A stretch of DNA of 28,207 nt from a virus: positions 1-28,207 of the IMG/VR virus record IMGVR_UViG_3300044612_001750; one strand, 5' to 3'. The notes below the pieces were generated by a model. It was given only the letters and a program-made list of their open reading frames with translations, did no database searches and was not told the DNA's origin. Below are positions 2,016-12,228 of this stretch, one piece after another (position 1 is the stretch's first letter; each line of letters starts with the position of its first letter). A program made the position numbers and the translations under genes.

Positions 2016-2164
2016 GGAGGGGTGGCGGAATGACAGACGCAGCGGCATGCACTGCCGCCGGGCGCCGGAGACGTTCGAGATCGCTACCCGACACTCTACG
2101 ACTGTGACAGGTTCGCCTTCCTCACCGTAAGCTCTTGCAGGTTTGAGTCCTGCCCCCTCCACCA
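2016..2164 (+). tRNA. Unusual class II tRNA-like gene, anticodon GCA, with oversized variable region
   Basis: The acceptor stem GGAGGGG (2016-2022) pairs perfectly with CCCCTCC (2154-2160), followed by A73 and an encoded CCA (2162-2164). The D-arm has a 3-bp stem (GCG 2025-2027 with CGC 2038-2040), and its sequence resembles tRNA-Leu. The anticodon arm has a perfect 5-bp stem (GCGGC 2042-2046, GCCGC 2054-2058) with loop ATGCACT, giving anticodon GCA (2049-2051) for cysteine codons. C37 is odd. The T-arm is GCAGG/CCTGC (2137-2141/2149-2153) with loop TTTGAGT. The variable region is 78 nt (2059-2136), far above the usual 10-20. It contains a CGGG/CCCG pairing and a TTCG-capped hairpin (2104-2125). 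Total length is 149 nt. G19 and C56 are absent. It may be a working tRNA with an insertion, a decayed one, or a tRNA-like RNA. Confidence 0.5.
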
Positions 2165-2172
2165 ATTTCCGT

Positions 2173-2249
2173 TGCGGGATAGTTCAGCCCGTTAGAACGC
2201 CACCCTCATAAGGTGGAGGCCGCCGGTTAGAATCCGGCTCCCGCATCCA
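2173..2249 (+). tRNA. tRNA with anticodon CAT (Met or Ile2)
   Basis: A complete 77-nt cloverleaf. Acceptor TGCGGGA (2173-2179) pairs with TCCCGCA (2239-2245), then T73 and encoded CCA (2247-2249). The D-stem is GTTC/GAAC (2182-2185/2195-2198). The anticodon stem is CCACC/GGTGG (2200-2204/2212-2216) with loop CTCATAA and anticodon CAT at 2207-2209. The variable loop is AGGCC. The T-stem is GCCGG/CCGGC (2222-2226/2234-2238). The T-loop is TTAGAAT, with A at position 56 instead of C, and the D-loop has GT where GG is expected. CAT may read AUG (Met) or, if C34 is modified to lysidine, AUA (Ile). The T1-A72 pair and T73 are unusual for elongator Met, so identity is open. Confidence 0.85.
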
Positions 2250-2255
2250 ATTCAC

Positions 2256-2354
2256 GCCTCCGTAGTGTACAAGGCTCAACCCAGTTAATACCTGGGCTCA
2301 AGCACTCCGGGATCTATCCCCGGCAGCGCGGATCTCCAGTCCGCCGGAGGCACC
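2256..2354 (+). tRNA. Degenerate or unusual tRNA-like structure, anticodon loop with AAT
   Basis: GCCTCCG (2256-2262) pairs perfectly with CGGAGGC (2345-2351), followed by ACC. Directly inside the 3' arm, GCGGA/TCCGC (2328-2332/2340-2344) makes a 5-bp T-stem. An anticodon-like arm, CCCAG (2280-2284) and CTGGG (2292-2296), carries loop TTAATAC (AAT at 2287-2289). A long variable arm contains the hairpin CCGGG/CCCGG (2307-2311/2319-2323). However, the D-arm pairs poorly and the T-loop (TCTCCAG) lacks the conserved TTCRA pattern. The perfect acceptor and T-stem are hard to dismiss, but it may be a decayed tRNA or a tRNA mimic. Confidence 0.3.
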
Positions 2355-10261: not shown

Positions 10262-10480
10262 ATGTCCCAAAAGCGAGTATCCACGAAGCAACTACAGGAA
10301 ATGCGAGCCAAGTACGTCGAAGCGGTCACCAGCATCGATTCGCGACGAGCCGAGGTGGCGAAGTATGACACGAAGCTGAAAGACGACCGGATCGCGACCC
10401 TCGGCGCCATCCAGGCTGTCGACCAGCTCATCGCCTCGATCACGCCGCCCCCGGCGCCCGAGGCTGCGCCTGCGAAGTGA
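10262..10480 (+). CDS. Small coiled-coil protein upstream of large terminase
   Basis: A 72-residue protein starting MSQKRVSTKQLQEMRAKYV, four bases after the fibre stop. The body is helical and charged (VTSIDSRRAEVAKYDTKLK, IATLGAIQAVDQLIASI) with a Pro/Ala tail. Its TGA overlaps the GTG of the terminase gene (GTGA, 10477-10480), so the two are probably translationally coupled. It could be a small virion or packaging accessory. An earlier in-frame ATG at 10223 lies inside the fibre gene and is disfavoured. Confidence 0.55.
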   Translation: MSQKRVSTKQLQEMRAKYVEAVTSIDSRRAEVAKYDTKLKDDRIATLGAIQAVDQLIASITPPPAPEAAPAK

Positions 10481-12228
10481 TCTACTACGGACTCAACTTC
10501 CCCGACGAGATGTCGGAGGCGATGGTGGAACTGTGGTGCTACGCGAACCCAGATAACCCCGGGCTCGCCGCCGGGCCCGGCAAGCAGGTACACCTGAAGA
10601 ACGCCATGATGCTCATGTGGCCCCACCTGTACGCGGGTGAGGTCGAGCCGGGCGTGCCGCGGTGGCGGGACGACCTGGAGCTGCTGACCTGGGCGTGGTG
10701 TAACTACAAAATCATCTCGGTGATCGGTCACGCCTCGGCCGCGAAGACGCACACGTTCGGGCACATCGCCGCCGCGAGCTACATCGCCGACTCTCTCAAC
10801 TCGATCATCACGCTCACGTCGACCCACTTGACGGGTCTGCGCAAGCGTCTCTGGTCGGACACCGTCTCGGCGATCAAGACCGCGAACCTGGGCAATGGCG
10901 TTCTCGGAGGTCACCACTTCGACATCCGGACGCACGACATGACGATCCGGCCTGCGGGCTCGAAGGAGGACAAATATGTCATCGAAGGTATTGCGACTGA
11001 CCGTGGTCAGGACGCTGTCGAGAAGATCCAGGGCACGCACTCTCGCCGCCGCCGCTACGTCTTCATCGACGAAGCGCAAGGTACGCCGGGCGCGATCTTC
11101 GAGGCGTCGTCGAATCTGATGACCGATCCGGATTTCCGGATCGTGATGCTGGCGAATCCAACAAAGCGATACAGCACCTTCGGCATGTGGTGCGAGCCGG
11201 AGAACGGCTGGAACAGTATCGACCCCGACATCGACCAGCACTGGATGACGAAGAAGGGTGGCATCTGCATCCGCCTCGACGGGATGAAGTCGGCGAACAT
11301 CAAGTATGGTCGCACCGTATTCCCGTTCCTGGTACGACAGGACTACCTCGACAGCGTCGCGAAGGCGTTCGGCGTCGACTCACCGCGGTGGTGGACGTTC
11401 GTCCGCGGGTGGTTCGCCCCCGAGGATTCGCTCGGCATCATCTACCCGGGCTCGGTTCTGAACAAGGCCGAGGCCAAGATCGCGTACGACTTCAAGCCCA
11501 CCCCGATGGCTGCGCTCGACCCGGCGTTCGAGGGCGGCGACCAATGCTCTCTCGCGCTCGGGGAGTTCGGCTCGGCGAAGGGCTCGAAGTGGGCGATGAA
11601 CGTGACGAAGATCATCAACATCAAGGTCGCGGTCACTGAGACCTCGGACCCGATGGACTTCCTGATCGCGAAGGAAGTCATGCGCGTCTGCGTGGAGCAC
11701 GGCGTTGCCCCGGAGAACTTCATCATGGACGTGACCGGCGCCGGCCGCGGTGTCGCCGCGATCTTGGAGAAGGATTGGTCGCGTTTGATACAGCGGTGCA
11801 ACTTCGGTGGAGCGGTCACGACCCGGAAGATGAAGCTGTCCGACGTCGAGACCTCCGACCAGTTGTTCGACCGCTTCGTCTCCGAACTCTGGTGGGCCGG
11901 TCGAGCGTGGATGGAGGAGGGGCTCGTCGGCAACGTCACGCACGAGTTCAAGACCCTCCGCGAGCAACTGTCCGCCCGCCAATACGAGACGGTCAAAGAC
12001 AAGAAGATCTCCGTCGAGCCGAAGCGTGAGATGAAGGAGCGGCTCGGGTATTCGCCCGACGAGGCCGACGCGTTCGTGCTACTGATCGAGCTTCTCCGCC
12101 GCAAGGGCGCGACCGCGGGAAACATCAACAGCGCGACGACCGGCAACCGCCGCGACCCGCAGCGGAAGACCGCCGTCCGGTATTCGCGAATCGAGAACCC
12201 AGACAAAGCGTACATGCACGCAGCTTGA
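10477..12228 (+). CDS. terL: Terminase large subunit (packaging ATPase and nuclease)
   Basis: A 583-residue protein, the usual size for large terminases. ATPase domain: Walker A variant GHASAAKT at residues 84-91, with A where the second glycine is usual; then ITLTSTH near 111-117; Walker B YVFIDEAQ at 194-201, including the catalytic glutamate; and MLANPTK as motif III-like coupling. C-terminal RNase H-like nuclease: ALDPAFEGGDQ (first acidic residue), MDVTGAGRGVAAIL (second) and GYSPDEADAFVLL (third), the standard triad pattern. The enzyme cuts concatemeric DNA and pumps it through the portal. GTG start overlaps the preceding stop; three bases separate its stop from the next gene. Confidence 0.9.
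   Translation: MIYYGLNFPDEMSEAMVELWCYANPDNPGLAAGPGKQVHLKNAMMLMWPHLYAGEVEPGVPRWRDDLELLTWAWCNYKIISVIGHASAAKTHTFGHIAAASYIADSLNSIITLTSTHLTGLRKRLWSDTVSAIKTANLGNGVLGGHHFDIRTHDMTIRPAGSKEDKYVIEGIATDRGQDAVEKIQGTHSRRRRYVFIDEAQGTPGAIFEASSNLMTDPDFRIVMLANPTKRYSTFGMWCEPENGWNSIDPDIDQHWMTKKGGICIRLDGMKSANIKYGRTVFPFLVRQDYLDSVAKAFGVDSPRWWTFVRGWFAPEDSLGIIYPGSVLNKAEAKIAYDFKPTPMAALDPAFEGGDQCSLALGEFGSAKGSKWAMNVTKIINIKVAVTETSDPMDFLIAKEVMRVCVEHGVAPENFIMDVTGAGRGVAAILEKDWSRLIQRCNFGGAVTTRKMKLSDVETSDQLFDRFVSELWWAGRAWMEEGLVGNVTHEFKTLREQLSARQYETVKDKKISVEPKREMKERLGYSPDEADAFVLLIELLRRKGATAGNINSATTGNRRDPQRKTAVRYSRIENPDKAYMHAA

Follow-up and report, generated by a model that had tools for sequence, protein, structure and literature searches.

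Compensated replacement of the G19-C56 elbow pair in two adjacent phage elements and across phage tRNAs

The window, by which we mean the whole stretch of DNA analysed, is a virus record of 28,207 bases and belongs to a tailed phage, whose terminase gene lies at 10477-12228. About 1.1 kb between the end of an open reading frame at 1498 and the start of the next at 2586 contains no obvious gene, and it houses two adjacent elements (Table 1). A first-pass annotation had called both of them phage tRNAs. That description suits element 2, a sound tRNA, but element 1, with a variable region of 78 nt, is better described as tRNA-like. Conservation of the tRNA cluster in the nearest phages was ruled out, as TerL relatives lack it; two TerL relatives encode unrelated tRNAs with G19-C56. 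The TerL sequence shares only about 25% identity with cultured relatives, and a portal search for cultured relatives of the phage returned none. Searches for relatives of the neighbouring 113-residue protein and for a sigma-70 promoter near the tRNA cluster were likewise negative. A direct repeat of 33 nt (76% identical, 2388-2420 and 2546-2578, CTCCAGAA..CTGATACGT) is situated upstream of the gene at 2586 and is perhaps a phage promoter or regulator site.

Table 1. Coordinates of the elements in the window and of their parts
Feature	Position	Strand	Remarks
Element 1, type-II (Leu-like) tRNA-like element	2016-2164	+	145 nt plus encoded ACCA
Element 1 acceptor	2016-2022/2154-2160	+	perfect 7-bp
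Element 1 D-arm, Leu-type	2025-2040	+	
Element 1 G18 A19	2032-2033	+	direct reading; Leu-type D-loop alignment with L222 and L540
Element 1 anticodon arm	2042-2058	+	perfect 5-bp stem, loop ATGCACT
Element 1 variable region	2059-2136	+	78 nt
Element 1 T-arm	2137-2153	+	perfect T stem
Element 1 T-loop TTTGAGT	2142-2148	+	T54-T55-T56 at 2142-2144; U55 2143, U56 2144
Element 2, tRNA, anticodon CAU, encoded CCA	2173-2249	+	ARAGORN; Rfam RF00005
Element 2 G18 U19	2191-2192	+	G18 2191, T19 2192
Element 2 T-loop TTAGAAT	2227-2233	+	T54-T55-A56 at 2227-2229; U55 2228, A56 2229
Element 2 discriminator base U73	2246	+	
Element 3, candidate degenerate tRNA-like element	2256-2351	+	acceptor GCCTCCG/CGGAGGC

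Element 2 scores 66 bits against the RF00005 covariance model, for which the gathering score is 29. It has a 7-bp acceptor, T33, a 7-nt T-loop with U54, U55, R57 and A58, and a CCA end. In place of G19-C56 it carries U19-A56, which retains the potential for Watson-Crick pairing. It is not an initiator tRNA-fMet: U1 and A72 are paired, without a 1-72 mismatch, and the anticodon stem is CCACC/GGTGG. From general knowledge of tRNAs, the codon read by element 2 is most likely AUG, or AUA if C34 is converted to lysidine, but this is not certain because U73 is unfavourable for MetRS and IleRS. A U73 before the CCA is unusual for a CAU tRNA, and the nearest relative has A73.

Element 1 was detected neither by ARAGORN with default settings nor by Rfam, even at E<=10. 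At an 80% threshold ARAGORN does call it, but as a different fold of 85 nt, and calls made at relaxed thresholds were discarded as noise. The free fold is not more stable than that of shuffled sequences (z +0.83). However, when 362 kb comprising the window and its relatives were screened for strict cloverleaves (7/7 acceptor, 5/5 T stem, 5/5 anticodon stem, T33), exactly elements 1 and 2 were recovered, and three shuffles gave none. Element 1 therefore has the stems of a cloverleaf and a 3' CCA. The anticodon loop is not a usable one, with C37 in place of a purine, and the variable region is oversized. Because of these two features, element 1 is regarded as tRNA-like and, judged from general knowledge of tRNAs, probably does not decode. 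A selenocysteine tRNA or a member of another Rfam family was sought at E<=10 without a match, and a YrlA match at 2131-2200 (23 bits, gathering score 69), which runs through a T-arm and then a D-arm, was dismissed as chance.

Oversized phage tRNA-like elements are not confined to the window: 18 were found in a 6.25-Mb scan, compared with none in a shuffled copy, and element 1 alone among the 18 has a regular 7-nt anticodon loop. Among Leu-type phage tRNA-like elements, those of L218, L278, L540, L225 and L021 have anticodon loops that are enlarged or missing, and four of the five share the acceptor AGTCAGG/CCTGACT. A further Leu-type element (L222, minus strand, 91 nt) has A19-U56 and a 15-nt anticodon loop that holds ACCTCCT, the anti-Shine-Dalgarno core. 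Insertions of about 50-70 nt, too short for typical group I introns, occur in the anticodon loops of two phage tRNAs (L465:2869-3477 and L587:3941-4070).

Directly downstream of element 2, a possible third element of degenerate, tRNA-like character has an anticodon-like arm (CCCAG TTAATAC CTGGG), a variable arm and a T-stem-like arm, with neither a D-arm nor a canonical T-loop. Its fold has a z score of -3.26, and 1 of 200 shuffles was equally stable; Rfam gave no tRNA match.

The G19-C56 pair at the tRNA elbow is near-universal and is regarded as an invariant of tRNA structure. Direct reading bears out what had first been noticed in the window, namely A19-U56 in element 1 and U19-A56 in element 2, with G18-U55 kept in both. 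The assignment of positions 18 and 19 is clear, since there is a single possible G18 in the D-loop AGCCCGTTA, and GAATGACAGA aligns with the Leu-type D-loop GAATTGGTAGA. Misassignment of position 19 was ruled out on the same ground and by the agreement of a scan from the D side, and no alignment was found that places another base there. Both elements fit the set of compensated swaps, in which base 56 is not C, its Watson-Crick partner is at 19, and G18 and U55 are kept.

Viral contigs were searched from the T-loop side and from the D-loop side, and the counts were pooled and de-duplicated. Among 1,602 viral tRNAs with assignable bases, 122 are without C56; as the contigs were partly picked for A56 or U56, these counts describe coupling and not prevalence. 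A Watson-Crick partner occupies position 19 in 109 of the 122 (57 U-A, 48 A-U and 4 C-G), and 9 are G-U; the pooled counts are 1464 for C56-G19, 57 for A56-U19, 48 for U56-A19, 4 for G56-C19 and 9 for G19-U56. When base 19 was shuffled 20,000 times, the maximum was 74 Watson-Crick pairs, compared with the 109 observed. The compensation first read from the two elements extends to phage tRNAs at large, in which the two positions covary over 15 isotypes and all four Watson-Crick combinations occur. Changes at 56 unaccompanied by 19 are rare (2 A56 with GG in the D-loop, the 9 G19-U56 and 1 G56 with GG). Another 13 A56 tRNAs have ambiguous loops with two possible G18, all of which contain GU.

The searches from the two sides give the same picture. 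From the T-loop side, CAU tRNAs with A56 nearly all have GU at 18-19; where base 56 is U, most have A19 and a few are G19-U56 wobbles. From the D-loop side, D-arms with U19 were sought with base 56 unconstrained; this gave 66 loci, and A56 was present in all 62 complete tRNAs, every one of them CAU. A single CAU family (TAGCTTAG..AAAGC) contains both U19-A56 and A19-U56 (L587, L590), and a cyanophage CAU family has G19-C56 in S-SKS1 and U19-A56 in L048, L052 and others. A scan for Leu-type D-arms with A19 yielded few tRNAs. Compensation is not absolute in elements of this type, because L538 and L540 combine A19 with C56, in contrast to the A19-U56 of L222.

Overall the swap is uncommon, at well below a few percent. 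When viral CAU tRNAs were gathered regardless of base 56, none of 106 had A56 or U56, and U56 was present in 2 of the 523 other tRNAs on those contigs, so that 629 tRNAs gave 2 T56 and no A56. For this reason, chance would not be expected to place two swaps side by side. By comparison, contigs with a U19-A56 CAU tRNA contain 225 other tRNAs, of which 10 are swapped at 19-56 (odds ratio 12, p=2e-4 against the 2 of 523). The annotation had taken the two swaps of the window to be independent compensations; the swaps are real, but they need not be mutually independent, given that swaps cluster within phages.

Swaps recur in phages and are near-absent from the bacterial genomes sampled. Among the CAU tRNAs of 694 Pseudomonadota and Bacteroidota genomes, none with a swap was detected; seven non-C56 pattern matches were not tRNAs according to ARAGORN, and their number is near the level of the reversed-pattern control. 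Four test genomes gave about three C56 CAU matches each. In a wider genome scan, 7 of 119 matches were tRNAs, of which 4 keep G19 and are uncompensated and 3 have U19, on two MAG contigs.

The swap is also found in named phages. All seven T4-like phages read have a tRNA-Arg(UCU) with U19-A56 (Escherichia phages P896, RZ, VR7, teqskov and e11/2, Shigella phage Shfl2 and Salmonella phage UTK0003); the listed host of RZ and teqskov is E. coli K-12 MG1655. The homologous tRNA-Arg of NBEco004, kv_tblp8 and Aeromonas phage 65 has G19-C56.

Other departures from the canonical elbow occur in phage arrays. These include T-loops ATCGTTA, with A54/U58 for U54/A58, and TGCGA, with G55 and often A18 G19, and several T-loop variants can share one array. 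Ten arrays each contain several non-standard T-loops (L069, L076, L123, L125, L139, L175, L254, L274, L419 and L429), of the types ATCGTTA (54-58 swap), TGCGA with A18, TCCGA and GTCGGAA. The A54-U58 and G55-A18 re-spellings are apparently compensated, as would be the mark of a constraint to keep the fold, and they suggest that phages in general keep the elbow and change its spelling. A long variable arm is unusual for tRNA-Ile, and 27 unique phage tRNAs of at least 85 nt combine such an arm with the anticodon UAU (L048:4938-5027, L092, L100, L083, L562, L549:1405-1495 and others); they often directly adjoin a CAU tRNA with U19-A56.

The observations to be explained are the covariation, its recurrence over isotypes and phages, the phage bias and the clustering within phages. 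They are probably accounted for by compensated drift, with recognition of the elbow relaxed and pairing enforced. Bases 19 and 56 would have to pair for the D- and T-loops to interlock and the L to form, a shape that RNase P, EF-Tu and the ribosome would need. Phage tRNAs, used for one infection, may escape part of the cellular requirement that fixes G-C, which would be imposed by modification enzymes and by whatever else reads the G19-C56 face. The G-C pair could then drift to A-U via a G-U wobble and, by less direct routes, to U-A or C-G, after which pairing would hold the new bases in place. Against drift, there is no wobble step from G-C to U19-A56, yet U-A is the commonest swap in searches made partly for A56. 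The fixation of U19-A56 in the T4-like phages read, together with the missing wobble route, hints at selection rather than drift.

Selection had also been proposed by the first-pass annotation, perhaps for escape from a host nuclease or modification enzyme that reads the elbow. Selection to keep the pair follows from the covariation of 19 and 56, whereas escape has no specific support. An altered elbow face would here block a host enzyme that reads G19-C56 and cleaves or modifies tRNAs, and during infection the phage tRNA would replace the damaged host tRNA. Swaps are indeed recurrent, phage-biased and long-kept, and they cluster within phages, but usually only a minority of the tRNAs in an array is swapped. 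We know of no elbow-specific defence nuclease, and a literature search for an elbow-reading nuclease or a matching defence found none. Many partners bind the G19-C56 face, which is exposed (PMC4810234), and changes in the anticodon loop of phage tRNAs set a precedent for escape, although the paper that reports them is silent on the D- and T-loops (PMC10264068). Compensated drift fits the swaps at least as well, and we consider it unlikely that phages systematically re-spell 19-56, with the L-shape kept and the face presented to host factors altered, because a host tRNA-targeting defence or quality-control factor recognises G19-C56. If they did, recognition would take place on two fronts, at the anticodon loop and at the elbow.

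Still less probable is functional tuning, in which a swap would adjust the affinity for one elbow reader, such as EF-Tu, the ribosomal L1 stalk or L5, RNase P or TruB/TrmA, and alter turnover, modification or use with no role in defence. The U-A pair is strongly biased to CAU tRNAs and the A-U pair to Arg and CAU, a distribution biased by the CAU searches, and U19-A56 is constant in the T4-like tRNA-Arg(UCU). Tuning would favour one preferred new face, but there are three alternative pairs, two of them in one CAU family. That both elements are degenerating remnants with random elbow changes is very improbable: element 1 has its oversized variable region, C37 and no Rfam match, element 2 has U73, and a degenerate third element adjoins them, but every stem of element 2 is perfect, as are the acceptor, anticodon and T stems in element 1, both encode CCA, and 19 and 56 changed together in each, where decay would change 56 without 19.

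The U-A, A-U and C-G pairs of phages, set against the G-C of the cells sampled, separate two possibilities, that the pair is needed for the fold or that its identity is needed for stacking partners. Closely related tRNA genes with and without the swap in E. coli phages make a direct test possible. Annotation tools and tRNA mimics tuned to G19-C56 may undervalue swapped genes. Suppressor tRNAs engineered to have altered elbows are known. The open-access literature searched yielded no description of 19-56 swaps in tRNAs of phages. In a review of the elbow, the G19-C56 face is treated as a surface for recognition, and phages are not mentioned (PMC4810234).

Among sequenced phages, the nearest sequence to element 2 is the tRNA-Met of Roseobacter phage DSS3P8 (83.8% over 79 nt), which in contrast has the canonical G19-C56, A73 and a D-stem GAGC/GCTC. 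The tRNA-Met(CAU) of Acinetobacter phage vB_AbaM_ME3 shares both the anticodon and U19-A56 with element 2, and it adjoins a type-II tRNA-like element that has A56 and whose anticodon arm is poor; however, its acceptor and D-stem sequences differ from those in the window, and the order of the elements is reversed. The T4-like tRNA-Arg(UCU) resembles the window elements in being phage-encoded, in keeping G18 and U55 and in its encoded CCA, and it has the U19-A56 of element 2. Unlike element 2, it is of the Arg isotype with A73 and belongs to another lineage, the Straboviridae of enterobacteria. The phage tRNAs with altered anticodon loops described by van den Berg et al. (2023), who do not mention D- or T-loops (PMC10264068), also depart from host tRNAs at a recognition site, but there the change is in the anticodon loop, whereas in the window it is in the elbow.
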